Shown here in pieces: positions 9,233 to 62,612 of a DNA stretch of 64,000 bases (its first letter is position 1; each line of letters begins with the position of its first letter). Below the pieces are notes generated by a model. That model was not told the origin of the DNA, did no database searches, and was given only the letters and a program-made list of their open reading frames with translations. The stretch comes from Oscillospiraceae bacterium (GTDB taxonomy: Bacteria > Bacillota > Clostridia > Oscillospirales > Oscillospiraceae). The stretch is from positions 1-64,000 of the forward strand of contig CACZDN010000004.1 in the NCBI GenBank assembly GCA_902779945.1, written 5' to 3'. Both the position numbers and the translations under genes were made by a program.

Positions 9233-9280
9233 AAAAGATTGGCTCATCATACAGTTTGCATAAACGGAGGCGAATCAAAA

Positions 9281-9379: not shown

Positions 9380-9413
9380 AAAAGCCGCCGGGAGGGCTTG
9401 TCCTTCCCGGCGG
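9375..9413 (-). terminator. intrinsic terminator of the oad operon
   Basis: On the minus strand a GC-rich stem (9384-9413, arms CCGCCGGGA/TCCCGGCGG) is followed by CTTTTTCG, 60 bp after the oadB stop. Confidence 0.8.
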
Positions 9414-9471
9414 TTATGCAAGATGGGTCTGGGAACTGCGGGCTTTTTCAAAGCCGCATGGCGGGGGATGC

Positions 9472-10692: not shown

Positions 10693-10702
10693 ACGCGCCT
10701 CC

Positions 10703-11113: not shown

Positions 11114-11453
11114 CTTCTTTGACCTCCCTGATGGAAATAAAGCGCAGCTCATTGAGCGGCTTGCCGAGCGTGTCGGCAACGATCGCCATGACCATGGCGG
11201 CGTCGCGGGGATCGGTGTTGTAGAGCTTGAAGTCGCCCGCGGAGCCGGGGGCGGGCTCGGCCTTCACCGGCGCGGGAGCCGCGGCGGGCGCGGCGGCAGC
11301 GGGTGCGGGGCTCGCGGCCTTCTCGCGGTGCATGATCCTGCCCATCACGAGGATGACGCACATCAGCATCACGAGGCCGAGGAACACCACCAGGTAGCCC
11401 AGCAGCGCATAGCCCGCGGCGTTGGGGATCGAAATGTTTACAAGATCAATCAC
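11103..11453 (-). CDS. oadG: Na+-pump decarboxylase gamma subunit
   Basis: This is a 116-residue protein. GTG at 11453 is preferred because AGGAGG lies 8 bases upstream. One N-terminal membrane helix (about 12-36, YALLGYLVVFLGLVMLMCVI) is followed by an Ala/Pro linker and a small soluble tail. OadG-type subunits assemble and stabilise the alpha and beta subunits and may bind metal. The tail ends in the ribosome-binding region of the carrier gene, and the two genes overlap by 11 bp. Sequence is weakly conserved in the family, so the assignment rests mainly on topology and position. Confidence 0.75.
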   Translation of the reverse strand: MIDLVNISIPNAAGYALLGYLVVFLGLVMLMCVILVMGRIMHREKAASPAPAAAAPAAAPAPVKAEPAPGSAGDFKLYNTDPRDAAMVMAIVADTLGKPLNELRFISIREVKEDEV

Positions 11454-11470
11454 GACAGTATCCTCCTGTC

Positions 11471-43777: not shown

Positions 43778-43899
43778 AGCGCATTCCGCCCCTTCCGAAC
43801 TTTTGGCCCCGCACGAGTCAGCGCAGCCGGACACGCGACCTCATCATTCCTCACCCCGCGGGGAGAAGCGCTCTCATGATCGACGCGGCATTTTTTTCT

Positions 43900-43928
43900 A
43901 TTATACGCGAAAAACCGTCATTCTTCAA
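43900..43928 (-). promoter_or_regulatory. promoter of the kinase/solute-binding operon
   Basis: On the minus strand TTGAAG (43928-43923), a 17-bp spacer and TATAAT (43905-43900). Confidence 0.65.
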
Positions 43929-43956
43929 TAGAGTCACCATAGAAAAAAACGGGGCG

Positions 43957-45135
43957 TCAGCGCAGCGCCTCGCGGAGCTCCCGCAGGGTGAGATCGTTCT
44001 CGCGGGCGAGCCGTCTGAGATCCTCGTACTCCGGCTTCTCGCGCTCTGCGCCCCAGCCCTCGGCGCGCTTGACCGTCACCTCGCCCCAGGGCGTATCCGC
44101 CTTGCGGAAGGAGCGGCTGAGCGTATGGCGCAGGGAGAACACGGCGCGCACGCCGAGTGTCGTGGTGTGCCGGAAGAGGCAGCGCATCAGCTCGTTTTGC
44201 TGATCCGTTCTGCACAGCACCGAGAGCATCACGCCCGGGCGGCCCTTCTTCATGCCGATGGCGGTGGTCCACACGTCGAGAGCCCCGGCCTCCAGCAGCC
44301 GCTCCTGCGCAAAGCCCAGCTCCTCGCCGGTCATATCGTCCAGATTGCAGTGGAGCTCCACCAGACGCCCGGGCGCCTCGTTCCCCTCGCCCAGCAGGAC
44401 GCGCACGGCGTTGAGCTGTCCGAAATCCTTCGTCCCCATGCCGTAGCCGCATTTTTCCACCGTGAGCATCGGGACGCCGCCGAACGCGTCTGCGAAGAAG
44501 CGCAGCAGTGCCGCGCCCGTCGGGGTGCAGAGCTCGGACCTGATCTCCCCCTCATACCAGGGGATGCCGCGCAGCAGGATCTCCGCCGCGGGGGCGGGCA
44601 CCGGCAGCACGCCGTGGGCGCACCTGACCGTGCCGCCGCCGACGTTGACGGGGGAGGCGATCACCCGCTCCGGCGCGAGCTTTTCCATCAGCAGGCACAC
44701 GCCCAGCACGTCCGCCACCGCGTCGAGGGTGCCGACCTCGTGGAAGTGGATGTGCTCCATGTCCTGCCCGTGCACCTCGGCCTCGGCCTTTGCGATGCTG
44801 TCAAAGACGGCGAGGGCGTTTTCGCGCACCGCGTCGGAGAGGGGCACGGCGGCGATCAGGGCCCGGATCTCCCGGATGCCGTTGTGATGATGGCGGTGCT
44901 CGCCGCCGTGGTGATGCTGCCCCTCCTCCTCGCCGTCCACCGTGACGCGGACGTGCAGGCCGCGGACGCCGCATTTCACGTCCGGTTCCGCGGTGACAAC
45001 AGCCTTCCCGGCGAGGGCCGTGTTGATCTCCCGCAGGAAATCCGCACGCGCCTCTTCTTTTAACAAGTCCAGCAGGGCGGCGGTCAGCATATCGCCGGCC
45101 ACGCCCATGCCGCAGTCCAGGTACAGTGTTCTCAT
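43957..45135 (-). CDS. larC: nickel-pincer cofactor nickel insertase
   Basis: This 392-residue protein inserts Ni into the pyridinium-3,5-bisthiocarboxylate mononucleotide cofactor, using CTP. The N-terminus LYLDCGMGVAGDMLTAALLD, a His-rich segment (about 72-86, QHHHGGEHRHHH) that may store nickel, and HFHEVGTLDAVADVLG identify LarC. Unlike Lactobacillus plantarum, where a programmed frameshift joins larC1 and larC2, this gene is in one uninterrupted frame. Its start overlaps the larE stop by 4 bp. Confidence 0.92.
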   Translation of the reverse strand: MRTLYLDCGMGVAGDMLTAALLDLLKEEARADFLREINTALAGKAVVTAEPDVKCGVRGLHVRVTVDGEEEGQHHHGGEHRHHHNGIREIRALIAAVPLSDAVRENALAVFDSIAKAEAEVHGQDMEHIHFHEVGTLDAVADVLGVCLLMEKLAPERVIASPVNVGGGTVRCAHGVLPVPAPAAEILLRGIPWYEGEIRSELCTPTGAALLRFFADAFGGVPMLTVEKCGYGMGTKDFGQLNAVRVLLGEGNEAPGRLVELHCNLDDMTGEELGFAQERLLEAGALDVWTTAIGMKKGRPGVMLSVLCRTDQQNELMRCLFRHTTTLGVRAVFSLRHTLSRSFRKADTPWGEVTVKRAEGWGAEREKPEYEDLRRLARENDLTLRELREALR

Positions 45136-45887
45136 TTGCTTCTCTCCCTTGGGATCGGGTCAAGGCTGACCTCGGAATAGTACGGCCTGAGCGCCGCTTT
45201 GATCTCGTCCAGGCGCGCCGCCGCGGTCTCGTGCTGACCGGCGATGAACTGGAGCTTTGCCGCCCCGTCCCTCGTGCGGAGGCGAAAATCCGTAAAGCCC
45301 ATTTGAAACAGCGCGTCCTCTCCCGCCTCGATCGCGGCGAGCTTTTCCGCCGTGATCGGCTCTCCCGTCGGGACGCGGGTGGCGAGACAGGCGTAGGCCG
45401 GCTTGTCCCAGGTGAAGAGCCCGGCCTCGCGGCTGCGGCGGCGCAGCTCCCCCTTCGTGATGCCGCACAGGCGCAGCGGGGACAAAACCCCCGCCTCCCG
45501 GAGCGCCTGCCAGCCGGGGCGGTCGCCGATGTCGTCGCTCGCGTTGGTGCCGTCGATCACGAGCGGATACCCGTCCCGCGCGGCGGCCCGTCGGATGGCT
45601 GACATGATGAGCTTCTTGCAATAATAGCAGCGATTCGCCGGATTGGCCGCGACCGCGGGCTCGGAGAGCGGGTCTGCCTCCAGCACCGTGACCGCGGCTC
45701 CCAGCTCCGACGCGAGGCGCAGCGCGTCCCGCAGCTCAAACGCCGGCTGGAAGGGCGATTTGACGTAATACACGCCCAGGTCTTCGGCCCGGCGCAGGCC
45801 CTCACAGAGCAGGTAGGACGAGTCCGCGCCGCCGGAGAAGGCGAGGGCCGCGCGCGGATGCTCGCGAAAGAAATCGCTCAGTTCCAT
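45132..45887 (-). CDS. larE: ATP-dependent sacrificial sulfur transferase
   Basis: This 251-residue protein carries the PP-loop SGGADSS (18-24) for ATP. It adenylates the pyridinium dicarboxylate and donates sulfur. Conserved Cys167 in PAYACLATR corresponds to the sulfur-donating position of LarE. A CYYC pair (87-90) also lies nearby, so either the sacrificial or the Fe-S-dependent type is possible. It is one base downstream of larB. Confidence 0.92.
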   Translation of the reverse strand: MELSDFFREHPRAALAFSGGADSSYLLCEGLRRAEDLGVYYVKSPFQPAFELRDALRLASELGAAVTVLEADPLSEPAVAANPANRCYYCKKLIMSAIRRAAARDGYPLVIDGTNASDDIGDRPGWQALREAGVLSPLRLCGITKGELRRRSREAGLFTWDKPAYACLATRVPTGEPITAEKLAAIEAGEDALFQMGFTDFRLRTRDGAAKLQFIAGQHETAAARLDEIKAALRPYYSEVSLDPIPRERSK

Positions 45888-45888
45888 A

Positions 45889-46641
45889 TCAGTCCAGGTG
45901 GTTGATCATGCTGGCCATGTAGCCCGCGCCGAAGCCGTTGTCGATGTTCACGACGCAGACGCCGCTTGCGCAGGAGTTGAGCATACTCAGCAGCGCCGCG
46001 ATCCCGCCGAGGCTGGCGCCGTAGCCCACGCTGGTGGGCACGGCGATGACCGGGCAGTCCGCAAGGCCGCCGATCACCGAGGGCAGCGCCCCCTCCATGC
46101 CCGCCACGGCCACGATCACGCGGGCGGACATGATCTGCTCCATATGGCTCAGCAGCCGGTGGATGCCGGACACGCCCACGTCGTAGAGGCGCAGGACCTC
46201 GTTTCCCAGCACCTCCGCCGTGACGGCGGCCTCCTCGGCCACCGGAATGTCGCTGGTGCCGCCGGTGGCGACCACGACGCGGCCCTTGCCCGTGGGCTCC
46301 GGCAGCTCGCCGATCACCCCGGTGCCGGACAGGGGATCGTAGCGCAGGGGGAGCGCCGCCCCCACATACGCGGCGGCCTCCGCGCCGAGGCGCGTGACGA
46401 GTACGGTGTTCTGCCCGTTCTCCCGCATGGTCCGCGCGATGCCGAGAATCTGCTCCTTCGTCTTGCCCGCGCCGTAGATCACCTCCGGCACGCCCTGGCG
46501 GATGCCGCGGTGGAAATCCACCTTGGCGTATTCGCCGATCTCCTGAAAGGGCTGCATTTTCAGCCTGAGGGCCGCGTCCGCCGGGCTGAGCGTCCCGGCC
46601 GCAACCTGCTCCAGCAGCGCCGTCAGTTCCGATTTATCCAT
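45889..46641 (-). CDS. larB: pyridinium-3,5-biscarboxylic acid mononucleotide synthase
   Basis: This is a 250-residue protein. ATG 46641 is chosen for GGGAGG 7 bases upstream. It has a short helical N-terminus and an AIR-carboxylase (PurE-like) domain: VVATGGTSDIPVAEEAA, the active-site region VAVAGMEGALPSVIGGL and VPTSVGYGASLGG. It carboxylates and hydrolyses nicotinate adenine dinucleotide. First gene of larB-larE-larC. A TATAAT at 46754-46749 (minus strand) may be its -10. No larA homologue is present in the window. Confidence 0.93.
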   Translation of the reverse strand: MDKSELTALLEQVAAGTLSPADAALRLKMQPFQEIGEYAKVDFHRGIRQGVPEVIYGAGKTKEQILGIARTMRENGQNTVLVTRLGAEAAAYVGAALPLRYDPLSGTGVIGELPEPTGKGRVVVATGGTSDIPVAEEAAVTAEVLGNEVLRLYDVGVSGIHRLLSHMEQIMSARVIVAVAGMEGALPSVIGGLADCPVIAVPTSVGYGASLGGIAALLSMLNSCASGVCVVNIDNGFGAGYMASMINHLD

Positions 46642-46814
46642 AACAGACCTCCCGTGATCCTCTCCGATTTCTTTTTCATGCTTCCATGCCGACAAAACGC
46701 CGCAGGATGGCCGCGGCGCACTTTTCCGCAACAAGCCTCGCGCGTGTGATTATAACCCAGAATAACACGGTTTTTTACTCCGCGTCAACCCCGCGCGGTG
46801 AAGGAATAAAGATT

Positions 46815-47032: not shown

Positions 47033-48049
47033 TCATGCCGCCGAAACCTGGAGGGAGACGAACTTGCTGCGCGTATAGACCTTCATGCCGTCCTTCATCG
47101 TATAAGCAAGCCTGCCGTTTATGACGTCTTCAAGAAACGCGCCTGCCTCGATGACCGGGTCCGTGCCGGGCAGGATCGCGTTATGGGAGCAGTAGACCCA
47201 CCGGATATTCTTTTCCCGTATCACGGTTTCGATCCTGCGCATACTCTCCAGATAATCGGGCAGGGAGGCGTCTTCACCGAAGGCATAGAGCGGGCCGGGA
47301 TACCAGGTATCCCCGGTAAACAGCAGGCCGTTGTGCGCGTCGATCAGGGTGATGCACGAGTCGTTATGGCCGGGCGTATACAGGACCTCCAGCTCCCGGT
47401 TCCCGAGGTCGATCGTCTGACCGTCCTCCACGGTGGCTGTCGGCGCTTTTCCGGCGATGAAGAAGGTATCCCCGGCAAAGCCCTCCGGCGGTCTGATGAT
47501 CTCCTCCGGAACGATGAAGCCCTCGAGCTCCTCATGTGTATACCCCTGCGTCAGTCTCTCCACGGCGGAGTCGATCCGATAGCACATGACCCGGTCAAAC
47601 TGCGCGTTGCCCCCGATATGGTCGGGGTGGTTATGCGAGTTCAGAACGGTGATCGGGAGCGCGGTCAGCGCCTGCACACAGGAGCGGATATCGCCGATCC
47701 CCAGCCCCGTATCCCAGAGCAGGGCGGACGTCTCTCCCAAAATGAGGTAGGAGATGACCAGCTCGCTCTGCCTGTATTCAAACAGCGCATATACATCTCC
47801 CGGAAGCGCATATACCCGGAACCATTGCTCACCCGGCACATCGACCGTCTGAAAGCGGTCCCAGAAGGGGGTATACATCTCCAGATCCGGGAGCCACGAG
47901 CGCTGCGCTTCGCTCAGGTCCGGCCCGGGGTCCAGCGCCTTATCCGAGGCTCCGGCCGCGGCGGAAAGGGGAAAAGCGCAGAGAACGGCAAACAGCAGCA
48001 GCCAGGCGATCCGGTTTTTTCTGATGTGATTCATTTTCTTTCTTGTCAT
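47033..48049 (-). CDS. exported metallo-beta-lactamase-fold hydrolase
   Basis: This 338-residue protein has an N-terminal signal or anchor (RKNRIAWLLLFAVLCAFPLSAAA). The metal-binding motif SHNHPDHIGG (H-x-H-x-D-H), then TPGHND, TGDTWYPG and CSHNA are complete, so a dinuclear metal site is likely. It acts outside the membrane. It overlaps the acyltransferase gene by 4 bp and ends the NRPS operon, so it may trim, hydrolyse or detoxify the exported product (lactonase- or esterase-like). No known peptide-resistance enzyme is matched closely enough to name. Confidence 0.85.
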   Translation of the reverse strand: MTRKKMNHIRKNRIAWLLLFAVLCAFPLSAAAGASDKALDPGPDLSEAQRSWLPDLEMYTPFWDRFQTVDVPGEQWFRVYALPGDVYALFEYRQSELVISYLILGETSALLWDTGLGIGDIRSCVQALTALPITVLNSHNHPDHIGGNAQFDRVMCYRIDSAVERLTQGYTHEELEGFIVPEEIIRPPEGFAGDTFFIAGKAPTATVEDGQTIDLGNRELEVLYTPGHNDSCITLIDAHNGLLFTGDTWYPGPLYAFGEDASLPDYLESMRRIETVIREKNIRWVYCSHNAILPGTDPVIEAGAFLEDVINGRLAYTMKDGMKVYTRSKFVSLQVSAA

Positions 48050-49242
48050 GAGGCAAAGTAACTGATGAGCTCAGCAGGGTCTGTCACCTTCGACAGGCCA
48101 TAACAGACCAGCGCCAGCGACACGATCCATATCGCAGTATAGACGATCTTCCGCTTTGCCCCCCGAAGGCCTGTTATAGTGAAGTGGATATACCTCTCAT
48201 TGAACTCAATGCAAAGGTAACAGACGGCAAGCGCCAGCAGGCCAAGCAGAAACGGCATCAACTGTCCCTGCATAAATTCGCCGCGAACGGCCAGGAGGAT
48301 TATCATGGCGGTGCCGATCAGCACGTCGCTGATACAGTAGTAGCTGTTGACGTGCCTGGACAAATGGTTCAAGAAAGCGGGGACTCTCCCGCCTGTCAGA
48401 CGGGAGAACTTATACAGGATGCTCAGAAAGATCAGCACATTCAGACACAGGAGAACAGAATCCAGACCCGTTGTGGGCTCTTCATCCAGGAGATACGGCG
48501 GCATCAGCGGGAAGGGGACATTCACACGCAGCACAATATAGATCAACGAAAGCGGAATACAGATCAGCAGGACCCGGTTTGCCATTCTGCCCTTGTCCGC
48601 GATATAGGGGTAGATTCCTCCGACCAGGTACCCGAAAGACAACATCAGAAAGTGCGTCCCCAGTGAGAACAGCGCGTCGTCGGTCTGGATGAAAAGATTC
48701 AGAATCCGGTGCGGCCAGAACGCGTCCGGCGTTTTGATGACGGACGGAAGCAGAGTCGAGAGCAGATTCATTGCAAGTCCGATTGCCAGAATCCACCCAT
48801 CCCGCAGCTTCAGCATTTTCAGCAGCGCCATCAGGAGAAAAGACAGACCGAAAAAGGTCAGGACGTCGGAAGTGAAGACATCCAGAATAAACGGTATAAA
48901 CATCTTGTCCCCGGTGATTCGGCAGGCGGCCAGCGCGGGCAGGCCGCTGCGAAGGAGATTGACAAGCTGGCTGATCGTCAGCAGCGCGATGCCGCGCCCG
49001 GCGATGTCCTTCGGCTCCTGATGCCGTGAATACCGCATTCCGATTCCCGCGCAAATGATAAAGCTACCTGCGCCCAAAAAGCGTTGTAAGAAGTCTGTGA
49101 TGCTTCGGAGTATCCCGCTGCAGTCCGGAGCAAATGCATAAAAGGCATGAATCAGAACCATATAGATGATGCTGATGCCTTTGGCCATGTCGATTTCCGG
49201 CTGCCTGCCGGTGTTGACTTTATTGTTTTCCAGATATTTCAT
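48046..49242 (-). CDS. acyltransferase-like multispanning membrane protein
   Basis: This 398-residue protein has about ten hydrophobic segments. The N-terminal signature EIDMAKGISIIYMVLIHAF (D-x2-KG-x8-H) is shared by acyltransferase-3 and HGSNAT-like membrane acyltransferases. It follows the NRPS stop by one base. It might acylate the peptide product or a membrane lipid/sugar receptor. The family is large and functionally mixed, so the role is inferred from context. Confidence 0.7.
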   Translation of the reverse strand: MKYLENNKVNTGRQPEIDMAKGISIIYMVLIHAFYAFAPDCSGILRSITDFLQRFLGAGSFIICAGIGMRYSRHQEPKDIAGRGIALLTISQLVNLLRSGLPALAACRITGDKMFIPFILDVFTSDVLTFFGLSFLLMALLKMLKLRDGWILAIGLAMNLLSTLLPSVIKTPDAFWPHRILNLFIQTDDALFSLGTHFLMLSFGYLVGGIYPYIADKGRMANRVLLICIPLSLIYIVLRVNVPFPLMPPYLLDEEPTTGLDSVLLCLNVLIFLSILYKFSRLTGGRVPAFLNHLSRHVNSYYCISDVLIGTAMIILLAVRGEFMQGQLMPFLLGLLALAVCYLCIEFNERYIHFTITGLRGAKRKIVYTAIWIVSLALVCYGLSKVTDPAELISYFAS

Positions 49243-49243
49243 A

Positions 49244-52200
49244 TCATCGTTCTGTTCCGCTATTGAAATCCGGTGCCTGCTTTTTCATCAGCGTTTCCAA
49301 TATCCGGATATAAAGGTCGTGGAACGCGATCATCCTTTCCTTGTCGAACAGGCCCTCCGCGTAGTCCATCTCGGAGTCAAAGCCTCCGTCGCCGTATTCG
49401 TTTTCAAAGAGCTCCAGCTCCGTCCGGGCTCCGGCGGCGGAATAATCGTCCCGCAGCTCGAGCATCTCATGCTTCAGCTCGTTGAGCTCATCCCCGCCGA
49501 AGCCGAGCTGCAGGTTGACCTCCAGACTGTCGTTCACATAGGCGCGGAGCTTTTCCGCCATGAGATCATAGCTGCAGTGGGCGATGGCCCCGGCGACCTG
49601 ATCCTTCACGGAATGGAGCAGCTCGCGGACGGAGGCGTATTCCTCCATGCGCGCGGCCGCCGGCATGTTCCGGATCAGCAGACCCACGGCGCCCGCCGCC
49701 TCCGGCGCAAGGCGGTTGTTGAAGATCCAGTTGATGATGACATGCTTTTTCCCCGAAAAGCCTGACAGCGCCATGAGTCCGGCGGCGACGGCCATCACGG
49801 AGAGCGTCACGCCCCAGTATTCCTCTGCCGCGCGCACCTGCTGCGCATCAAAGCTCAGACGGTAGATGCGGCTGTGACCCTGGTCGATGTTCTCGTTGTC
49901 GTGATCCTGCTCGAGATTGTTGCACCAGTCGCTCATTTCACCATAGCGTTCACGGAAGTAGGCGCAGTCCCTTTCGTACTCCCCCTCTTCGCTGCGCTTC
50001 TCCGCCTCGGCCAGCATGGCGAAGTAGTAGTCCTTCTGCAGCGGCCTTCCGAAATAGGCGTTCATGATGTCGGCGAGCAGGACGCACATCGAGCCGCCGT
50101 CCATCACGACATGGTGGACATCCATGAACAGATAGCAGCCCTTTCGGCCGCGGAACACCCTGGCCTTGCAGAGACAGGCGTTCAGGAGCCTGTCGAAGGG
50201 TCTCAGCAGCGTATCGGCCAGCGCGTCCTCGGCCGCGGGATCGACGTCCTCCACCGTCACCTCCGGCAGAAGTCCCGGCCTGTACTGCTGCCGGAGCTGC
50301 CTCTTATTGTCAAAGAAGAACGCCGTGGAGAGCGCCGGATGCTGCGCCAGCGCGCGGTTGACCGCGGCGCAGAGCCTGTCCGCGTCCGCGTCCTCAAAGC
50401 GGGCCAGAAAGTGCATGGTGCTCCACATGGTGGACTCCGGCTCGAAGAGCTGATAGTCGATCATCTGAAGCTGCAGGGGCGAGATCGGGTGTGGGACAAG
50501 ACGCGCGCGCTCCTCCCGCGCGTCCAGGCTCTCAACGCCGGCTCTGGTCTCCAGCGCCCTGGCGATGGCGCCCGGAGTGCGCAGCTGGAAGATATCCGCG
50601 GGCGTCATGCCCTCGAGCTTTGCCTCGGCCATACAGAGCATGGCTTTCAGGGAATCGCCGCCCAGATCAAAGAAGTCGTCCAGCAGGCCGACCCGGCTCT
50701 CCTCCGGCCCGAGCGCGCGGGCAAACGCGGCGCAGAGGGCCTTCTCCGTCTCTGTCCGGGGCGGGACATATTCCGCCCGCAGCTCCTTCAGATCCGGCTC
50801 GGGCAGCGCTTTGCGGTTGACCTTCCCGCTGCTGTTCATGGGCATCGCGTCGAGGCGCGTCAGCACCGCGGGCACCATGTATTCCGGCAGCTTCTCCTGC
50901 AGGAAGGCCCGCAGGCTGCCGGCGTCGACCGCTTCCCCGGCGGTATAGTACCCGGCCAGATATTCGGCGCCGTGCGTATTCCGCACCGCCGCCGCGCTGC
51001 CGGAGACGCCCGGAAACTCGGCCATGACCTTTTCAATCTCATCCAGCTCGATCCGGAAGCCGCGCAGCTTGATCTGATTGTCGATGCGCCCGAAGATGCG
51101 GATCTCCCCGTCCTCCGTCCACGCCGCGAGATCGCCGCTGCGGTAGGCGCGCAGGCCGTTGTGCGTGAAGAAGGCGGCGGCGGTCTTCTCCGGCAGATTC
51201 ACATAGCCGCGCCCCACCTGGCTGCCGCAGATGATGAGCTCGCCGCGCATACCGGGCGGCAGCTCGTTTCCGAAGGGATCGGCCACATAGAACTGCGTAT
51301 TGGCGATGGGGCGGCCCACGGTCACGTGTTCGGAGCCTGTCATCAGCGCGGCGGCGCAGCCCATGGTACACTCCGTGGGGCCGTAGACGTTCAGGATCAC
51401 GCTGTCCTCCCGCAGCCTGCGCAGACGGTCATAGAGCTGCCGCGGGAAGGCCTCCGAGCCGACGTCGAAAAACCGGAACTGTCGGATGGCCTCCCGGCTC
51501 TCCGGGATCTCCAGCAGGCTCAGCAGATAGGTGGGGGTACAGGTGATGCCGTTTGCCCCGCTCTCCCGCACCAGGCGCGCAAAGGCGGCCGGATCGTGGA
51601 TCTCCGTCTCCGTGGCGATGACCACCGGGTTTCCGCTGCACAGCGGCACGAACTGCTCCACCACGGACACGTCGAAGGAGAAGGAGGCCAGCGCCAGATT
51701 CACCTGTCCCGGCGCGGCATAGTGCATGATCTCAATGGACTTCCCGTTCCTGTGGACATAGTTTGCAAGGTTCCCGTGCTCGATCATGACGCCCTTGGGG
51801 CGCCCGGTGGAGCCGGAGGTATAGATGACGTAGGCAAGGTCCTCCGGCTGTATGGAGAGCTCCGGCGTCCGGGCCTGCGCGTCCGGGCGGATCTCCTCCG
51901 GGCTGCTTGCCCCGAAGGCCTCCTCCAGCGTCAGGAGCCTCCAGCTTTCCCCCGCGAGGGAGCGGCCCCTGCTCTGCGCCTCTGTCGTCAGCAGCAGCGG
52001 GCAGGCCCCGTCCTCCATGCAGAAGGTGATCCGATCGTCCGGATACGCGGGGATGAAGGGCAGGAAGGCCGCGCCGGCCTTCAAAACGGCATTTTCCGCC
52101 ACATAGGCCCAGACCTCCCGGTCAAAGAGCACGCCGACGAGCTGCCCCTTCCGGACGCCTTCGTCGATCAGGCGCTGCGCCAGCTGACCGGACAGCAGAT

Positions 52201-55200
52201 CGAGCTCCCGGAAGCTCAGCGTCTTCCCGGCGGCGGTCACCGCGAGCCGGTCCGGACTGCGCAGAGCGTGGCGGTGGATCTGCTCCTGCACGGGGATGAA
52301 GGACATGGGGACCGCGGTATCGTTGAAGGACCGGAGCGTTTTTCTGTCCTCCGGCGTCAGCAGGGAGACCTCGCCGATCATCTGCGCGCCGAGAAGGCCC
52401 TCCGCCGTTGTAAACAGGTCCTGCGCGAAGCGCAGCGCCCATTTCTCCGTGAACTTCTCGTTGCGGTATTCGACGGTCATGTTATACAGGCCGTCGGAGG
52501 CAAAAAGCTGGACGGACAGGCACCCGGTCACCATGCCGGTGTGGTAGTGCTCCATGAACCACTTGTCGCCCCGGAGCAGGCTTTCCCCCGCCGCGGTGCC
52601 CATGTTGTCCGTGAACAGGTCGCCCTGATAGATGAATTCCACGTCCTCGTTCACCGGGCAGGTCTTGAGCACCTCGTCAAAGGAATAGATGTCATTGGCC
52701 ATGGAGGTGAAAAGCTGCCTGCCGATCCCGCGCAGGAAATCCCCGACGGGCTGATCGCTTCTGAGATCGCCGTACACGGGGATGCGCTTGATGAGCGTGC
52801 CGACGGTGCGGTTCATCTCCGGCAGCGCCCGCCCGTTGTACACCGTGGAGAAGGAGACGTGCCTGCTGCCCAGGTACTTGCCCAGCATCAGGGCCATGGC
52901 GCCCATGAAGAAGCTGCTTTCGGAGATATGCTGCTTCTCGCAGAAGGCCCGGACCCGCTCCACCGTCAGGGTCCCCGGCTCCCAGCGGATGTTCCGGCTC
53001 ACGCCGGGCGTCAGCGGGCCGTTCAGGTCGCCGGACAGGGCGGGCACGTCGTCCGCGTCCCGGAACAGGTTCCGATAGTACTCCTTTGCTTTTTCGTGGG
53101 AGCCGTCCCGCATCAGCCGCTCTTCGTACAGAGCGACCTGCTGGATGGTGCAGTCCTCCCCCAGAAGCGGCTTGCCGGCCAGAGCGCGGTTCATCTCGCT
53201 GATGAACAGGCTGATCGCCGTGCCGTCGAAGAAAATCAGGTGTGACTTGATGGCGAGGTAGCAGCGCTCCGGCGTGCGGTAGACCGCCATGTGGAAGAGA
53301 AGCTCGTCCAACAGGGGGACCACCGGGAAAAACTCCTTCATGAAGCGCAGGCGCCCCTCCTCCGTGCCCTCTATGACGGGGATGTCGGGTTCGGCGTCCG
53401 GCTTCATCACCATGCCGGGCATCCCGCTCTCATCCGCGCGGATGACGTACTTCATGCCGGGGTGCGCGTCCAGCACCTGCCGCACGGCGCGGATCAGCTC
53501 CTCCGCGCTGACGCCCTCGGCGGCCCGCGTCAGATAGGGACTGGTGTAGGTCTCCCTGCTGCCGCCGGTGAGGCTCTCCAGATAAATGCCCATCTGCGTC
53601 TTGGTCAGGGGACAGACGTCGCGGTCCGGCGCCGGGAGGAGCGCATCATGCCCGGCCTCGAGGAACGCTGCCATGTCCCGGGGCGTGGGATGGGCGGAAA
53701 CGTCCTGAAAGGACAGGGCAAAGCCCTCGCCGCTCAGCCGGTCGATCAGGATCGCGGCGCTCAGGGAGGTGCCGCCCTGGTCGAAGAAGTCCGCTCTGGC
53801 GCTGACCTGCTCCATTCCCAGGGCGTCGGCAAAGGCCTCGCAGATTTTACGCTCGGTTTCCGTAGCCGGCGCCTCGTATTCCGCCTCGTCCGTCCTGATC
53901 TCCAGGGCCTTCAGAAGCGGATAGTCCACCTTGCCGCGGTCATTGCGGGGCATGGTCTCCAGGTGGACGAAGTATTCGGGCACCATGTATGAGGGCAGGA
54001 AAGCCGCGGCGTACGCCTTCAGCGCCTCCGGGGAGGCCTCCTCGCCGGTATAGTAGCAGCAGAGAAGGTCGCCGCCGTGAACGCGCACGTCGACGCCCGC
54101 CGCCTCGGTGACGCCCTCCCTGCGGGTCATGACCCGCTCGATCTCGCCCAGCTCCACGCGATAGCCCCGGACCTTGACCATCCGGTCATTGCGCCCGTGG
54201 AAGAGCAGGTTCCCGTCCGCATCCCACGCCATCCTGTCGCCGGTGTGATACAGGCGCGTGCCGGGGCGGAAGGGGTTTGACGTGAAGCGCCGCGCCGTCT
54301 CCTCCGGCATGTTGCTGTAGCCCGCCGCGAGCCAGGGGCTGGATACGCAGAGCTCGCCGACCGCTCCGGGCTCCGTGATGAGCTCTCCGTCCTCGTCCAG
54401 CAGGTACGCGCTGACCCCGGGGCTCGGCTTTCCCAGTGAAAGGGGCCCGCCCTCTCCCGCCGGGCGGTGCGAGACGAAGGCGCTCTCGGTGCTGGCGTAG
54501 CCCTCGTATACCCCCGGATCGCGGGTGTCGCTCCGGGATTTTTCGCCTCCCATCAGGACATACTCCAGCGGGAGAGGGCCGTGGAGCCTTCTGAGCACGT
54601 CGTACATCGCGGGCGGGATGAACATGCCCGTGATCTGCCGCTTGTGAAACAGCTCCCAGACCATGTCCATGTTTTTCCGCTCGGTCTCGTTTGCAATATA
54701 GACGCTGCCGCCCTGGGTCAGCATCGGCATGATGTCCAGGACCGCGGCGATAAAGCTGAAGCCGGAGACACAGAGCGTGCGGGTGTGCGCCGTCGGCCGG
54801 ATGACGTCGCCGTAGGTCTCCCGGAAGCTCTCCAGCATCCGCTGCAGGTGGATCACACCCTTGGGCCTGCCCGTCGAGCCGGAGGTGTACAGGATATAGC
54901 CCTCCGCGTCCGGGTCGGAGAGATCCAGCGTCTTGTCGCCCGTCGGGTCGCTGCCGTGCATCGGCTGCATCTCCTCAATGCGCAGCACCGGAACGCCCGC
55001 GGCCCTCTCCGTGAGCGTGCCGACCGTAACGCACAGGGCGCAGCCGGCATCCTCCAGGATGGCCCGCACCCGCTCCGCGGGGTATTCCGCGTCGATGGGC
55101 ACGACGGCGCACCCGGCGCGCAGTACCGCAAACTGGGCGACGACAAACGCCTTCGTCCGGGGCAGGAGCAGGGCGATGCGCCCCCTGCGCTCCCTTCCGC

Positions 55201-55345
55201 CCAGGCGCGCAAGGATCTGCTCCGCCATGTATGCCGAGAGATTGTTCATGCGGTCATAGGTGATCGCGCCCTGGCTGTCCAGCACGGCATTGCGCTCCGG
55301 ATGCAGCTTCGCCTGCTCCAGAAACTGTCTGACTACACTTGCCAT
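49244..55345 (-). CDS. two-module nonribosomal peptide synthetase (A-T-C-A-T-C)
   Basis: This is a 2033-residue protein. A1 lies at about 1-500 (LYTSGSTGRPKG near 152; A5 reads YASTE instead of YGPTE; A10 Lys in RGKVDY near 468), T1 near 524 (FDQGGTSL) and C1 at about 555-985 (active site SHLIFFDG, keeping the second His of HHxxxDG). A2 lies at about 1030-1510 (YTSGSTGRPKG near 1173, YGPTE near 1318), T2 near 1562 (FDLGGDSL) and C2 at about 1640-2020 (intact HHVVMDG near 1744). There is no thioesterase or reductase domain; chain release may be by C2 or by the downstream hydrolase. By eye-alignment to GrsA, A1 has Ile where amino-acid-activating domains have Asp235, suggesting a substrate without an alpha-amine; A2 keeps Asp. 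The gene overlaps the MATE exporter gene by 13 bp. Confidence 0.9.
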   Translation of the reverse strand: MASVVRQFLEQAKLHPERNAVLDSQGAITYDRMNNLSAYMAEQILARLGGRERRGRIALLLPRTKAFVVAQFAVLRAGCAVVPIDAEYPAERVRAILEDAGCALCVTVGTLTERAAGVPVLRIEEMQPMHGSDPTGDKTLDLSDPDAEGYILYTSGSTGRPKGVIHLQRMLESFRETYGDVIRPTAHTRTLCVSGFSFIAAVLDIMPMLTQGGSVYIANETERKNMDMVWELFHKRQITGMFIPPAMYDVLRRLHGPLPLEYVLMGGEKSRSDTRDPGVYEGYASTESAFVSHRPAGEGGPLSLGKPSPGVSAYLLDEDGELITEPGAVGELCVSSPWLAAGYSNMPEETARRFTSNPFRPGTRLYHTGDRMAWDADGNLLFHGRNDRMVKVRGYRVELGEIERVMTRREGVTEAAGVDVRVHGGDLLCCYYTGEEASPEALKAYAAAFLPSYMVPEYFVHLETMPRNDRGKVDYPLLKALEIRTDEAEYEAPATETERKICEAFADALGMEQVSARADFFDQGGTSLSAAILIDRLSGEGFALSFQDVSAHPTPRDMAAFLEAGHDALLPAPDRDVCPLTKTQMGIYLESLTGGSRETYTSPYLTRAAEGVSAEELIRAVRQVLDAHPGMKYVIRADESGMPGMVMKPDAEPDIPVIEGTEEGRLRFMKEFFPVVPLLDELLFHMAVYRTPERCYLAIKSHLIFFDGTAISLFISEMNRALAGKPLLGEDCTIQQVALYEERLMRDGSHEKAKEYYRNLFRDADDVPALSGDLNGPLTPGVSRNIRWEPGTLTVERVRAFCEKQHISESSFFMGAMALMLGKYLGSRHVSFSTVYNGRALPEMNRTVGTLIKRIPVYGDLRSDQPVGDFLRGIGRQLFTSMANDIYSFDEVLKTCPVNEDVEFIYQGDLFTDNMGTAAGESLLRGDKWFMEHYHTGMVTGCLSVQLFASDGLYNMTVEYRNEKFTEKWALRFAQDLFTTAEGLLGAQMIGEVSLLTPEDRKTLRSFNDTAVPMSFIPVQEQIHRHALRSPDRLAVTAAGKTLSFRELDLLSGQLAQRLIDEGVRKGQLVGVLFDREVWAYVAENAVLKAGAAFLPFIPAYPDDRITFCMEDGACPLLLTTEAQSRGRSLAGESWRLLTLEEAFGASSPEEIRPDAQARTPELSIQPEDLAYVIYTSGSTGRPKGVMIEHGNLANYVHRNGKSIEIMHYAAPGQVNLALASFSFDVSVVEQFVPLCSGNPVVIATETEIHDPAAFARLVRESGANGITCTPTYLLSLLEIPESREAIRQFRFFDVGSEAFPRQLYDRLRRLREDSVILNVYGPTECTMGCAAALMTGSEHVTVGRPIANTQFYVADPFGNELPPGMRGELIICGSQVGRGYVNLPEKTAAAFFTHNGLRAYRSGDLAAWTEDGEIRIFGRIDNQIKLRGFRIELDEIEKVMAEFPGVSGSAAAVRNTHGAEYLAGYYTAGEAVDAGSLRAFLQEKLPEYMVPAVLTRLDAMPMNSSGKVNRKALPEPDLKELRAEYVPPRTETEKALCAAFARALGPEESRVGLLDDFFDLGGDSLKAMLCMAEAKLEGMTPADIFQLRTPGAIARALETRAGVESLDAREERARLVPHPISPLQLQMIDYQLFEPESTMWSTMHFLARFEDADADRLCAAVNRALAQHPALSTAFFFDNKRQLRQQYRPGLLPEVTVEDVDPAAEDALADTLLRPFDRLLNACLCKARVFRGRKGCYLFMDVHHVVMDGGSMCVLLADIMNAYFGRPLQKDYYFAMLAEAEKRSEEGEYERDCAYFRERYGEMSDWCNNLEQDHDNENIDQGHSRIYRLSFDAQQVRAAEEYWGVTLSVMAVAAGLMALSGFSGKKHVIINWIFNNRLAPEAAGAVGLLIRNMPAAARMEEYASVRELLHSVKDQVAGAIAHCSYDLMAEKLRAYVNDSLEVNLQLGFGGDELNELKHEMLELRDDYSAAGARTELELFENEYGDGGFDSEMDYAEGLFDKERMIAFHDLYIRILETLMKKQAPDFNSGTER

Positions 55346-56718
55346 CTCAAATTCTCCTTTTCCGGGTCAGATTCCGGCGCCGTCCGGAGCTTCTGATCCT
55401 CATGTCTGTACCACCACAATAAACACGCGACCACGGCGATCGTCGCAAGGATTTCCGCAAGCGGAAGGGACAGCCACAGTCCGTTGACGCCGATGAGCAG
55501 CGGCAGCAGCCAGACCGCCGCGAGCGGCCCGACGAAGCCCTTCACCGCCGCAATGATGAGAGACGCGCCGCCCTCGTTCAGCCCCGTGAAATAGGAGGCG
55601 GCGTAGGTCGTGACCCCGCCCGGAAGGAAGGAGAGACCGGCCAGCCGCAGGGCATGTGCCGCAAGCGCGCTGAGCTCCCCGTTGTATCCCACAAAGAAGC
55701 GGGAGATCGGATCGGCCAGGGCAAGACAGAGCCCCGTCATGACAAGGCCGAAAAGTCCCATCAGCAAAAGACCGCTGCGGCGCAGGCTGCGCACCTCCGC
55801 TGCGTTCTTTTTCCCCAGGTGATAGCCCACCACCGGCACGATGCTCATACTGACGCCGTAAAACACCGCCGAAAACAGGCCGCCGACATATTCGCTGACC
55901 GCATAGGCGCCGACCCCGGCCTCGCCCAGATAGCGCAGCATCTGCAGATTGAAGATCAGAGCGACGACGGCGTAGGCCACCGCGTCCACCATCTCCGACG
56001 CGCCGTTATACAGCGTCTTCCCCAGAGCGGCAGGGTCCATGGCGGGCCGCGAGAAATGCAGGGTGTGGCGCCGATCCGCAAAATAGACGGCGGGGATCAG
56101 CGCGCTGAGCGTCCAGGCAAGCCCGGTGGCCACCGCCGCCCCTTCCATGCCCCGGCCGAGCACGGCTACAAAGACCCAGTCCAGCAGGATGTTCGCCGCC
56201 GCGTTCGCCGCAGTCGCGGCAAGTCCCAGCCCGGGGCGCTCCGCCGTGATCAGCAGCGGATGCAGCGCTATGGAGAGCATCTGGAAGGGCATGAAGAAGC
56301 AGAGCACTCTTCCGTAGGTCACGCAGCCGCCGAGCAGCGCGTCCGAAGCACCCACCATGCGGGCAACGGCGGGCAGCAGGATATACAGCGCCGCCGCGAG
56401 CAGGACCCCGATCACCGCCAGCGCCAGCATCGTCATGCTCAGGATCGCATTCGCTTTTTCCCTGTGGCCCTCTCCCAGCTCCCTGGAGATCAGGGCGCTG
56501 GCCCCGGTGCCGAACATCAGTCCCACATACATCACGATCAGCAGGGGCGGGAAGATCAGGTTCTCCGCTTCAAAAGCCGCTTCGCCGATGTAGTTGGAGA
56601 TGAAATATCCGTCCGCCGCCTGATAGGTATTATCCACGATCTGCATCCCGATGCACGGGAGGGAAAACAGCAGGATCGTGGAGAGCTTAAAGTGGTCGGA
56701 TAACTGAATACGCTTCAT
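55333..56718 (-). CDS. MATE-family efflux transporter
   Basis: This 461-residue protein has twelve predicted helices in two halves, typical of MATE exporters. ATG 56718 follows GAGG closely. The N-terminus has FSLPCIGMQIVDNTYQAADGYFI, the family helix 1-2 signature (normally P-x6-N-x2-D); the second half has GVSMSIVPVVGYHLGKKN. It uses a Na+ or H+ gradient. Being first in the NRPS operon and overlapping that gene, it is the likely exporter of the peptide product. Confidence 0.88.
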   Translation of the reverse strand: MKRIQLSDHFKLSTILLFSLPCIGMQIVDNTYQAADGYFISNYIGEAAFEAENLIFPPLLIVMYVGLMFGTGASALISRELGEGHREKANAILSMTMLALAVIGVLLAAALYILLPAVARMVGASDALLGGCVTYGRVLCFFMPFQMLSIALHPLLITAERPGLGLAATAANAAANILLDWVFVAVLGRGMEGAAVATGLAWTLSALIPAVYFADRRHTLHFSRPAMDPAALGKTLYNGASEMVDAVAYAVVALIFNLQMLRYLGEAGVGAYAVSEYVGGLFSAVFYGVSMSIVPVVGYHLGKKNAAEVRSLRRSGLLLMGLFGLVMTGLCLALADPISRFFVGYNGELSALAAHALRLAGLSFLPGGVTTYAASYFTGLNEGGASLIIAAVKGFVGPLAAVWLLPLLIGVNGLWLSLPLAEILATIAVVACLLWWYRHEDQKLRTAPESDPEKENLRWQV

Positions 56719-56748
56719 GGCGCCTCGTTTCCGCTGCTTTTTTGTTAT

Positions 56749-56905
56749 GGCAACACCGCACAATCCGCCTTCGGCGCCTCCTGGAAAATTAGCGCCCTGA
56801 TTTTGTCGCTTTTTCTTGCAATACACAAAGTATTCCTGCAAAAAACTGCCTTCATCAGAACCCAATTTTCCAGGATTCGCTCTTGCCGAATTATGCGGTG
56901 TTGCC
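56749..56905 (-). mobile_element. palindromic MITE, copy 4 (in the leader of the NRPS operon)
   Basis: A 157-bp copy, GGCAACACCGCACAATCCGC to GCGGTGTTGCC, with both ends present and several substitutions (for example CAATACACAAAGTATTCC at the apex). It lies between the predicted promoter (56947-56975) and the first gene of the NRPS operon, so it would be transcribed as a long hairpin in the 5' leader. Confidence 0.75.
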
Positions 56906-56946
56906 CTATGGCAATCAGAACACAAAGCAGCAACGTTATATGGAAT

Positions 56947-57118: not shown

Positions 57119-58894
57119 GTGGATACACGGACAGCAGCACGCACAAACGGGAGGCCGAGAAGGTTCTCCCTTCGCTTCAAGCTGAATCTGGTGATTGTGA
57201 ACGCCGTCCTGCTCAGCTCTCTCTGCGTGCTTTCTCTGGCATTTTACGCGCATTGCCGGCAGATTGACCGGATCTTCTACGACGAGGCCGAGCGCGCCGC
57301 CCTGAACGTCAGCAAGCTCCTCAACAGCTTTGCCGAAGACAACGCTGTTGTCGTAAACCTCTGGAATGCAATCGACACGGATGAATTCCGTTCGCTCCGG
57401 GAGCGCGCCGTCCGGGAGGACGATCCGGGGCTGATCGAGGACTGGATGAAAAGCAGGGCTTCCGCCCGGGGAAGCGCGGCCCCGGAGAGAAGCCTCATGG
57501 ACGATTATGAATACTGCTGTGAAAGCCTGCTGTCGATCGAAGAATGCTTTCCGCTCGCCAATCTCTATATCCAGCGGGATGTGGGTGAGCTGACCTGGAA
57601 TCTGATAGACCCGGAGGAGAGCTTCCTGAACATCGGCTCAGTGGAAATCCCCATCGACGAGTTTCAGGAATACGAAGCCAATGCGCGGATTCCGGCGACG
57701 GTCTATCGCAGCGAGTACGGATGGCTCTGTACCGCCTGCGAGACTGTGTACCGCTTTCCTACGGACGAGCCCTTTGCGATCATATCCGCCGATATCGACA
57801 TGAACGATATTGCGCATGAGCGGGTGCTGTTCCTCCTCAACTGCGTGATCCTGATCCTGCTGGCGACCACGGCTGCGATCTTCATCAACCTGTTCTTTGT
57901 CCGGCGCATCGCGGTCGACCCGCTGTGCAGGCTTCAGAAGAATGTCAGCGGCTTTACCTCGGGCGAAAACGCCTATACCGCCGAGAACATGGTCAAGCCC
58001 GATTTTCGTTCTCGTGACGAAATCGGCGAGCTCAGTCAGGAGATTCGCAACATGCAGGAGCGTATCGTGGACTACACCCGCGATCTGGAGCGGGTCACGG
58101 CGGAGCGCGAGCATATTCGCACGGAGCTCGACCTCGCCGGGCAGATTCAGCGCAACGCGCTGCCTGTGCTCGGAGCGGAGTTCTCCGGTCACAGCAGGTT
58201 TACGCTCGGCGCATCCATGACGCCCGCCAGAGAGGTCGGCGGCGACTTTTACGACTTTTTCTTTACGGATGAAAACCACCTCGCTCTCGTGATCGCGGAC
58301 GTGTCCGGCAAGGGCGTTCCCGCGGCGCTGTTCATGATGTCCGCCAAAAACAGGATCAGCAGCCGTGCGCTCGGCGGCGGTACGCCCGCCGAGATACTGA
58401 CGGATGTAAACCTCCAGCTCTGCAAGCGCAATCCCACCCATATGTTCGTTACGGTATGGCTGGGGATCCTCGATCTTCGGACAGGGCTGCTCACGGCCTG
58501 CAACGCAGGGCATGAGGAACCGGCGCTTCGCGGAGCGGACAGCGTTTTCCGCCTTTATCACGACAAACACGGCTTTGTCCTCGGCGGGATGAAGCGCTCG
58601 CGCTATACCGACTACGAGCTGCGGCTTGCTCCCGGCGACACGCTTTTCGTCTATACGGACGGCGTCACGGAGGCGTCGGACGAGGAACAGCGCTTTTACG
58701 GGACCGACAGACTGCTTGCCGCTCTGAACGCTCCCGGCCCGTCCGATCCGGACGAGCTCCTGGCGGCAGTGCGGCAGAGCATTCAGGACTTCGCGGGCCC
58801 GGCGGAGCAGGCGGACGATCTGACCATGCTGTGCATACGCAGCCGGGGAACAGACGCGCAATACAATACAGACAACGCAAATATAGAATCATAA
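57119..58894 (+). CDS. membrane PP2C/SpoIIE-type phosphatase with sensor and HAMP
   Basis: This is a 591-residue protein. The GTG start at 57119 has GGAGG 8 bases upstream. TM1 lies at about 20-43, the extracytoplasmic sensor at about 45-235, TM2 at about 238-262, HAMP at about 263-320, a coiled linker to about 345, and a RsbU/SpoIIE PP2C domain at about 350-575. Metal residues appear in GGDFYDFF, IADVSGKGVPAALFM, FVYTDGVTEA and ADDLTML. It should dephosphorylate a STAS-domain antagonist in a partner-switching module, and the STAS gene follows directly. The sensor resembles that of the diguanylate cyclase at 18401. No anti-sigma kinase gene is in the window. Confidence 0.9.
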   Translation: MDTRTAARTNGRPRRFSLRFKLNLVIVNAVLLSSLCVLSLAFYAHCRQIDRIFYDEAERAALNVSKLLNSFAEDNAVVVNLWNAIDTDEFRSLRERAVREDDPGLIEDWMKSRASARGSAAPERSLMDDYEYCCESLLSIEECFPLANLYIQRDVGELTWNLIDPEESFLNIGSVEIPIDEFQEYEANARIPATVYRSEYGWLCTACETVYRFPTDEPFAIISADIDMNDIAHERVLFLLNCVILILLATTAAIFINLFFVRRIAVDPLCRLQKNVSGFTSGENAYTAENMVKPDFRSRDEIGELSQEIRNMQERIVDYTRDLERVTAEREHIRTELDLAGQIQRNALPVLGAEFSGHSRFTLGASMTPAREVGGDFYDFFFTDENHLALVIADVSGKGVPAALFMMSAKNRISSRALGGGTPAEILTDVNLQLCKRNPTHMFVTVWLGILDLRTGLLTACNAGHEEPALRGADSVFRLYHDKHGFVLGGMKRSRYTDYELRLAPGDTLFVYTDGVTEASDEEQRFYGTDRLLAALNAPGPSDPDELLAAVRQSIQDFAGPAEQADDLTMLCIRSRGTDAQYNTDNANIES

Positions 58895-58913
58895 ACGTAT
58901 GGAGGAACAGGAC

Positions 58914-59213
58914 ATGAACATTTCTGCAAAAAGGGAAGGCCTGACGCTCACCGTGCTCCCGGAGGGACGCATCGACACGCTGACCGCACCCATCTTTGAG
59001 CAATGGCTGGAAGCGGAGCTCGGGGACACGGACAGACTGGTCATCGACTTTTCAAAGGTCAATTACATCTCTTCTGCCGGACTGCGCGTTCTTCTCGCCT
59101 GCGCGCAGCAAATGGAGGACCGCGGCGGAAGCGTCAAGGCTGTCTGCGTAAACGATACGCTCCATAAGGTCTTCTCGCTGACCGGCTTCCTGGAGATCCT
59201 GAACGTCGACTGA
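58914..59213 (+). CDS. STAS-domain anti-sigma factor antagonist
   Basis: This is a 99-residue protein. ATG 58914 has GGAGGAAC before it. The STAS core GRIDTLTAPIFEQWLEAEL, VIDFSKVNYISSAGLRVLL includes the Ser pair where SpoIIAA/RsbV proteins are phosphorylated. Dephosphorylated by the preceding phosphatase, it would bind an anti-sigma kinase and free a sigma factor or other partner. It lies 19 bp after the phosphatase gene. Confidence 0.9.
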   Translation: MNISAKREGLTLTVLPEGRIDTLTAPIFEQWLEAELGDTDRLVIDFSKVNYISSAGLRVLLACAQQMEDRGGSVKAVCVNDTLHKVFSLTGFLEILNVD

Positions 59214-60904: not shown

Positions 60905-61065
60905 AGGCAACACCGCACAATCCGCCTTCGGCATCTCCTGGAAAATTTGCGCCCTGATTTCGTCACTTTTTCTTGAGGTACACAAAGTACATCTGCAAAA
61001 AAGTGCCTTTATCAGAACCCAAATTTTCTCAGGATCTGCTCTTGCCGAATTATGCGGTATTGCCT
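60905..61065 (-). mobile_element. palindromic MITE, copy 5 (most complete)
   Basis: 161 bp, AGGCAACACCGCACAATCCG to TGCGGTATTGCCT. The two halves pair along almost their whole length with an apex around GGTACACAAAGTAC. It is the best reference copy for the family and lies between the ATPase promoter and the integrase fragment. Confidence 0.8.
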
Positions 61066-61388: not shown

Positions 61389-61464
61389 TGGTCCGAGTGA
61401 GAAGATTCGAACTTCCGGCCTCTTGAACCCCATTCAAGCACGCTACCAACTGCGCTACACCCGG
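61389..61464 (-). tRNA. tRNA-Pro (anticodon GGG)
   Basis: 76 bases with encoded CCA. Acceptor CCGGGTG/CACTCGG pairs fully with one G-U; the D arm GCGCAGTTGGTAGCGT, anticodon stem CTTGA/TCAAG with loop ATGGGGT (anticodon GGG), and T arm GGAAG-TTCGAAT-CTTC-type are all present. It lies beside an integrase fragment, so it may be an integration site. Confidence 0.93.
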
Positions 61465-62408: not shown

Positions 62409-62429
62409 GGATTCAAATGAACAAAGCAT

Positions 62430-62585
62430 GATAGAGGCGCGGCTGACATGAGCAGCTCCACAGACAGGCGAGGGGAATCGCCGGAGCGAAGGGGGACGCC
62501 GCCGAAGGGCGCCGGCCTTCCCCGGACGGCGGCTCTGGGACGACGGAGAACATCCGGCGGACTGTCGCGAAAGCGGAGCGCTGTC
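62430..62585 (+). ncRNA. lysine riboswitch (L box) aptamer
   Basis: The 156-base aptamer opens with GATAGAGGCGCGG and closes with GGAGCGCTGTC; GATAG pairs with CTGTC as P1. Internal conserved blocks are present in order: GAGCAGC after the P2 entrance, GGGGGACGCCGCCGAAG (compare GGGGAGCGUCGCCGAAG in the Bacillus lysC leader), and GGCTCTGGG. It sits between a strong promoter and a terminator. Identification was by eye; known biology is that L boxes of Firmicutes control lysine synthesis and lysine or NhaC-type transport genes. Confidence 0.8.
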
Positions 62586-62612
62586 ACGCGGGCGGGGGAG
62601 ACCCGCACGGTC

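Follow-up and report, generated by a model that had tools for sequence, protein, structure and literature searches.

Small nonribosomal peptide synthetases (NRPSs) of gut Clostridia that end in reductive release yield pyrazinones or aldehydes, and a further group, the gut clostridial fatty-acid-amide systems, is reportedly the subject of the cited study by Chang et al. (2021, Nat Microbiol). The present analysis compares these and other described systems with an NRPS operon located in a 64,000-nucleotide stretch, referred to here as the window, of Oscillospiraceae bacterium GCA_902779945.1 (contig CACZDN010000004.1, positions 1 to 64,000); the operon comprises genes for a MATE-family exporter, a two-module NRPS, an acyltransferase-like membrane protein and an MBL-fold hydrolase. 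The best reading of the sequence is that the operon would work like the gut fatty-acid-amide systems and like amine-terminated NRPSs, yet it lies outside the fatty-acid-amide family. It is proposed, at about even chances, that its product is a small, exported N-acyl-aminoacyl amide, built from a variable acid, a fixed amino acid and a free amine, and released by a terminal condensation domain.

In the fatty-acid-amide (Oaa-type) systems described in PMC13142362, the adenylation (A), acyl carrier protein (ACP) and condensation (C) components are separate, free-standing proteins, and the product gains no amino acid; the C domain is thought to hand the acyl chain to a free amine, and its motif (D/H)HxxxD is followed mostly by S or A and by G in 17%. 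With these systems the operon shares its occurrence in gut Clostridia, the combination of a carrier and a C domain with an A domain predicted to take something other than an amino acid, and, presumably, the transfer of the chain to a free amine. It differs in that its NRPS is one fused A-T-C-A-T-C protein (T, thiolation or carrier domain) whose second module would add an amino acid, and in that its C domains read HLIFFDG (C1) and HHVVMDG (C2), whereas S or A mostly follows the D in the Oaa-type motif. Membership in the fatty-acid-amide family was rejected on account of the fused architecture and the C motif. Elsewhere in the same genome, a free-standing C domain (motif HHMTMDS), a 77-aa carrier and an A domain stand in a row (contig 14, about 40733-43996, equal to 9234-12497 of region L069), likely forming an operon of the fatty-acid-amide type; since this layout and motif are as described for those systems, both designs would coexist in one organism.

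Release of a chain onto an amine by a C domain has precedents in the consulted parts of two sources, namely glidonin, with putrescine as the amine (PMC10587159), and OaaC (PMC13142362). Glidonin and rhabdopeptide/xenortide-like NRPSs resemble the window's enzyme in that release onto a small amine would be carried out by a C domain, with no thioesterase needed. The corresponding sequence features are all found here: a C domain stands last, C2 keeps an intact HHxxxDG, and the Pfam matches of the NRPS (AMP-binding, PP-binding, Condensation and AMP-binding_C only) include neither a thioesterase nor a reductase. By contrast, the glidonin and rhabdopeptide/xenortide-like products are longer proteobacterial peptides, for which the parts consulted describe no one-acid-one-amino-acid design, no MATE pairing and no neighbouring SpoIIE/STAS genes.

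Reductive-release NRPSs are likewise small NRPSs of gut Clostridia, but their reductase terminus is missing in the window's NRPS; reductive release to a pyrazinone or aldehyde was rejected because no reductase domain appears among the Pfam matches. An initial annotation of this DNA had described a two-module NRPS without a reductase, which agrees with the A-T-C-A-T-C order found, although its comparison with reductive-release NRPSs alone proved too narrow, the fatty-acid-amide NRPS-like systems being a nearer parallel as far as the available part of PMC13142362 describes them. A group of same-genus single-module A-T-C NRPSs accompanied by MATE and STAS/HATPase/SpoIIE genes shares the terminal C domain and the MATE pairing, and among the genes found its SpoIIE and STAS come nearest to the window's pair; these NRPSs differ in having one module and an A domain without the diagnostic Asp, and their C and MATE proteins are only about 30% and 28-30% identical to the window's, respectively. 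Searches of the open-licence literature gave no description of the operon, nor of SpoIIE/STAS genes beside NRPS-MATE genes, and to that extent the earlier statement that no characterised cluster with this gene order is known still stands.

Domains of the NRPS and their conservation

The domains of the NRPS are as follows.

53906..55324, minus strand: A1 (residues 8-480), Ile199 at the position equivalent to PheA D235
53660..53851, minus strand: T1 (residues 499-562), FFDQGGTSL, Pfam PP-binding
52361..53632, minus strand: C1 (residues 572-995), motif H702-L703-IFF-D-G, with Leu at the second His position
50798..52279, minus strand: A2 (residues 1023-1516), Asp1225 kept, pocket DVVTFVVMG
50531..50743, minus strand: T2 (about residues 1535-1605, limits by eye), FFDLGGDSL, second PP-binding stretch
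49262..50509, minus strand: C2, terminal C domain (residues 1613-2028), HHVVMDG

Relatives were sought by short peptide patterns in 84,980 species genomes, and 18 loci with NRPS relatives were obtained; 16 of them are full-length (L016-L031, 60-73% identity by best segment), whereas L032 carries a broken or truncated NRPS, counted only where stated, and L033, which was left out, is a fragment of 4 kb whose frames are broken. The seventeenth full-length relative (genome G088, 60% identity; region L039, which coincides with L005) was found among 101 same-genus genomes, the window's own included. At strict cut-offs, and with at most two candidates per genome scored, 300 genomes of the family gave no further match except long NRPSs at 32-37%, and 391 genomes of the class gave no further relative; at most four candidates per genome were scored in the genus, and the counts from all three scans are lower bounds. 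The dimodular NRPS family is likely rare. Its members are mostly metagenome-assembled genomes (MAGs) of ruminant-gut Clostridia: for six of the 16, titles name the gut site (roe deer omasum for L018, L023 and L031; goat for L020 and L027; water buffalo for L026), and the rest are eight RUG names, which we take to stand for rumen uncultured genomes, an unplaced MAG (L019) and Butyrivibrio sp. MB2005 (L022).

The contrast between the two A domains supports the proposal of an acid joined to an amino acid. In amino-acid-activating A domains, the residue that we take to be Asp235 in PheA numbering contacts the alpha-amino group; its position was mapped via the LgrA alignment, other large Protein Data Bank (PDB) alignments being used for fold class only. 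In all 18 sequences (the window and the 17 full-length relatives), A1 has Ile, Leu or Val at this position and an otherwise variable pocket, while A2 has the Asp and the pocket D-V-V-T-[FL]-[IV]-V-M-G; the A1 and T1 motifs are intact throughout. Mean pairwise identity among the 18 is 0.575 for A1, 0.660 for T1, 0.735 for C1, 0.748 for A2, 0.709 for T2 and 0.669 for C2, so that A1 is the least and A2 the most conserved domain, as expected for a variable acid and a fixed amino acid. The HHxxxDG motif of C2 is retained in 17 of 18, the exception being L023, with S-N for HH.

In a tree of 70 C domains (FastTree, midpoint root), C2 joins the terminal C domains of single-module A-T-C proteins, with a support of 0.998 for its grouping with the 50%-identity single-module class together with L053, L054, L055 and L064, and of 0.619 only when the class at least 73% identical to the L014 NRPS is included. 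C1, by contrast, joins C domains that lie inside larger NRPSs (support 0.993, with 0.733 for the nearest step). Supports are thus mixed: the two key splits have 0.998 and 0.993, and deeper ones 0.619-0.911. The His would be retained if C1 were read as SHLIFFDG with an insertion of one residue, but this reading is disfavoured by an alignment without gaps, in which CYL precedes and DG follows, and by alignment to the canonical C domain of L010, both of which favour Leu at the His position. A structural model of C1 (pLDDT 65, pTM 0.60) gives the condensation fold class, and nothing finer was taken from it. The terminal C domain, the lack of the Asp in A1 and the Leu-for-His exchange in C1, as well as the divergent SpoIIE-STAS pair described below, are additions to the initial annotation.

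Operon neighbours and candidate regulators

The four genes of the operon are arranged as follows.

55333..56718, minus strand: MATE-family exporter, operon gene 1 (Pfam MatE, E=5.1e-29)
49244..55345, minus strand: two-module NRPS, A-T-C-A-T-C, 2033 aa (Pfam AMP-binding x2, PP-binding x2, Condensation x2)
48046..49242, minus strand: polytopic membrane acyltransferase-like protein, accessory (Pfam HGSNAT_cat, E=6e-10, above cut-off; Acyl_transf_3 below cut-off)
47033..48049, minus strand: MBL-fold hydrolase, accessory (Pfam Lactamase_B, E=8.3e-17)

Their spacing, a 13 bp overlap between MATE and NRPS, a 1 bp gap before the acyltransferase and a 4 bp overlap between the latter and the MBL gene, is the one first reported, and Pfam supports each assignment. 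The MATE start was taken as the ATG at 56718, the longest MATE open reading frame (ORF) beginning farther upstream, at 57180. The MBL hydrolase is probably exported, as judged by eye from an N-terminal hydrophobic segment, and its metal-ligand set is complete (HNHPDH / H228 / D247 / H289). Its designation as a beta-lactamase is unsupported: above cut-off, sequence searches give the superfamily only, and the B1 enzymes that are the top Foldseek matches of its model (3 sequences, mean pLDDT 72) are 14-20% identical and informative on fold only. Promoter and terminator scans were uninformative, with counts about equal to those from shuffles.

The MATE-NRPS pair is a stable unit among the relatives. 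A MATE homologue (45-76% identity) directly precedes the NRPS in the same orientation in 13 of the 17 full-length relatives (L016-L024, L026, L029, L030, L039). It is separated from the NRPS by a single gene in L027, where that gene belongs to the GNAT family, and in L031, and is adjacent but divergent in L028, which brings the pairing to 16/17; none was found in L025, where a SpoIIE gene and an ORF of the HATPase cluster stand directly upstream. A GNAT gene also separates MATE from the broken NRPS of L032. PF and NCBIfam names were checked for a selection of the unlisted flanking ORFs. Between MATE and NRPS in L031, an ORF (3664-5019) combines FMN-reductase and Leu/Phe-tRNA-protein transferase domains, an unusual tailoring candidate. 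Other acyl- or aminoacyl-transfer genes thus stand at the same place in three loci, which may be a sign that the product carries a free amine.

The two accessory genes are far less constant. An acyltransferase homologue adjoins the NRPS in two of the 17 (L016, 58%; L017, 49-50% identity), as does an MBL homologue (L017, 55%; L028, 42-44%), in which a Tyr replaces the metal-site Asp in L017; neither gene occurs in 14 of the 17 within the flanks covered. Both counts of two are lower bounds, several contigs ending near the NRPS. In L017, both homologues are clustered with MATE, NRPS and a phosphopantetheinyl transferase, a family to which the window's genome has one match, 32% identical to the L017 protein. 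The order MATE-NRPS-acyltransferase-MBL, whose conservation in relatives had been set beforehand as a check, recurs in 0/17, and the claim of a conserved four-gene unit was rejected on this ground. Of the single make-export-modify-cut unit that the initial annotation envisaged, the MATE-NRPS core thus holds, being part of an apparent operon and kept in relatives, while the acyltransferase and MBL genes are optional and stand in other arrangements.

Adjoining the upstream side of the operon, and divergent from it, are two candidate regulators.

57119..58894, plus strand: SpoIIE-type (PP2C) phosphatase with an N-terminal membrane region, candidate regulator (Pfam SpoIIE, E=2e-50)
58899..59213, plus strand: STAS-domain protein of the anti-sigma-factor-antagonist type, candidate regulator (Pfam; sister of the L046 STAS)

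Both are sisters of the pair in L046 (support 0.863 for SpoIIE and 0.983 for STAS), where a single-module NRPS lies in an operon of the order SpoIIE-STAS-NRPS-MATE-HATPase. No HATPase kinase stands beside the window's pair, as judged from the HATPase BLAST matches in region L065; elsewhere, the genome has five above-cut-off HATPase_c_2 matches, one of them within a complete SpoIIE-HATPase-STAS set on contig 1 (4928-7750 of region L070), which is remote from any NRPS.

Thirty regions were compared, of which 29 were picked, not randomly, from the better same-genus matches and one came from the window's own contig. The single-module NRPSs 73-100% identical to that of L014 (L044-L052, L056) are accompanied by MATE and STAS in 10/10, by SpoIIE, in line with both, in 9/10 (in the tenth, the contig ends after STAS) and by HATPase in 5/10; their A pocket is V-A-I-F-L-V-I-F-A in 10/10, without the Asp, and these loci look like a conserved system of their own. 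No common non-sigma-70 motif was seen by eye in the regions upstream of ten single-module operons. The single-module proteins of the 50% class (L040-L043) correspond to A2-T2-C2, with an A2-type pocket and a MATE gene in 4/4. More distant single-module loci mostly have no SpoIIE or STAS, L057 having SpoIIE and HATPase, and in other families of the order STAS stands beside the NRPS in two of the four best matches (L080, L081), the regions again being picked from the better matches.

The remaining features of the window concern its repeats and outlying genes. A dispersed repeat of about 163 nt (56746-56908, minus strand) lies 27 bases upstream of the MATE ATG, with a further copy at 60906-61064; the upstream copy forms a single long hairpin (minimum free energy -89.1 kcal/mol, z -12.4), at least 41 good matches occur in the genome (40 of 282 candidates scored), and a stretch resembling it by eye lies upstream of the NRPS in L045. 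At 43957-46734, a nickel-insertion gene and an AIR-carboxylase-like gene, presumably LarC-like and LarB-like, flank a third gene and probably form a nickel-pincer cofactor set. A tRNA gene (61392-61464) and a lysine riboswitch (62424-62591, 64.3 bits) were also found.

Proposed pathway and alternative explanations

From the gene content, domain order, motif states and conservation given above, a pathway can be proposed whose substrates, released product, transport direction and regulation are all deduced. A1 would activate a carboxylic acid other than an alpha-amino acid and load it onto T1, while A2 would activate a single amino acid, almost the same in all members of the family, and load it onto T2. 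C1 would then join the two, despite its missing second His. Release would occur at the terminal C2, where a small diffusible amine or another nucleophile would take over the acyl-aminoacyl chain, and the MATE protein would export the product. The membrane acyltransferase and the MBL hydrolase would serve as lineage-specific tailoring or processing enzymes, and SpoIIE and STAS would report an outside signal, probably controlling the system by partner switching.

Several observations weigh against this proposal. The second His of the C-domain motif is usually thought catalytic, and C1 reads H-L-x-x-x-D-[GA] without it in 19/19 sequences (L032 included), whereas all 33 other C domains of the set keep it; condensation by C1 is thus an assumption. 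The single-module C domains of L057, L061 and L063 fall outside the C2 group, and the A2 pocket fits no specificity code that we know of. A fatty acyl starter for A1 is not indicated, as C2 carries DG rather than the DS or DA commonest in fatty-acid-amide C domains and A1 stands apart in the tree from the genome's own OaaA-like A domain, OaaA itself being absent from that comparison. As for the regulators, any SpoIIE or STAS gene occurs in the flanks of only five of L016-L032 plus L039 (L018, L025, L026, L032, L039), the SpoIIEs of L018, L025, L026 and L032 form a clade distinct from the window's, and the four flanks of the 50% class gave no SpoIIE or STAS match; on these grounds, regulation is not a fixed property of the dimodular NRPS family. 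A regulatory link is favoured by the presence of SpoIIE in the flanks of 4 of the 17 regions L016-L032 vs 0.41 expected (Poisson P=0.0009), but the density control is drawn from a single genome, the window's own, and STAS alone is weak, at 2 vs 0.25 expected (P=0.026).

The missing His also invites the explanation that C1 does not condense and that the modules act separately, with A2-T2-C2 alone making the product, as L040-L043, which keep the A2 pocket and the MATE gene, would do. However, C1 is conserved about as strongly as A2, which argues that it is not decaying, and together with the intact A1 and T1 motifs this indicates that module 1 is under selection; the explanation is held to be unlikely. 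A similarly low probability is given to a terminal C domain that cyclises the chain or passes it to another carrier or to water, yielding a cyclic product or a free acyl-amino acid. Fungi are known to have cyclising terminal C domains, and none of the operon's genes was noted as forming an amine, but a single loaded amino acid leaves hardly anything for ring closure other than through its side chain, and C2 groups with C domains of single-module A-T-C proteins, for which an outside nucleophile is the simplest acceptor.

The accessory genes and the regulators raise separate questions. The acyltransferase and MBL hydrolase might be essential, the four genes forming one dedicated modify-and-release pathway, as the translational overlap and the 1-bp gap, the L017 cluster with both homologues, and the single homologues beside the NRPS in L016 and L028 would suggest; their absence from most relatives and the altered metal site in L017 make this improbable. 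More weight, though short of an even chance, is given to the SpoIIE-STAS pair being unrelated to the NRPS, either a chance neighbour or a remnant of a lost single-module NRPS operon: the pair is divergent, set apart by a repeat copy and without an adjacent HATPase, and its nearest equivalent belongs to the single-module operon of L046, whereas none of the three C-domain matches in the window's genome is a single-module NRPS of that kind. At the same time, SpoIIE and STAS are scarce in this genome (5 and 3 matches), and independent SpoIIE/STAS neighbours at other dimodular relatives speak for a connection.

Significance for gut Clostridia

Taking the amide pathway together with its candidate regulators, a wider proposal can be put forward tentatively, and with more doubt than confidence: a dispersed, signal-gated family of amide synthetases in ruminant-gut Clostridia, which would join a variable acid to a fixed amino acid via a conserved C1 lacking the second motif His, add a gut amine via the terminal C domain, export the product through a dedicated MATE protein and be switched by SpoIIE-STAS. 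If true, the family would form a counterpart to the gut fatty-acid-amide systems that is fused, inserts an amino acid and varies in its chemistry at one end only. The SpoIIE/STAS switch is best known from sporulation and stress, and its position beside NRPS-MATE genes would tie a switch of that type to small-molecule export. The Leu-for-His exchange in C1, kept in 19/19 sequences, offers a natural experiment on the mechanism of condensation domains. According to PMC13142362, gut Clostridia produce acyl amides with activity at host receptors, and the dimodular NRPS family points to a second, fused route in which an amino acid would be added, with a variable acid end and a fixed core. The presence of the family in the named strain Butyrivibrio sp. 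MB2005 makes discovery of the product practical.

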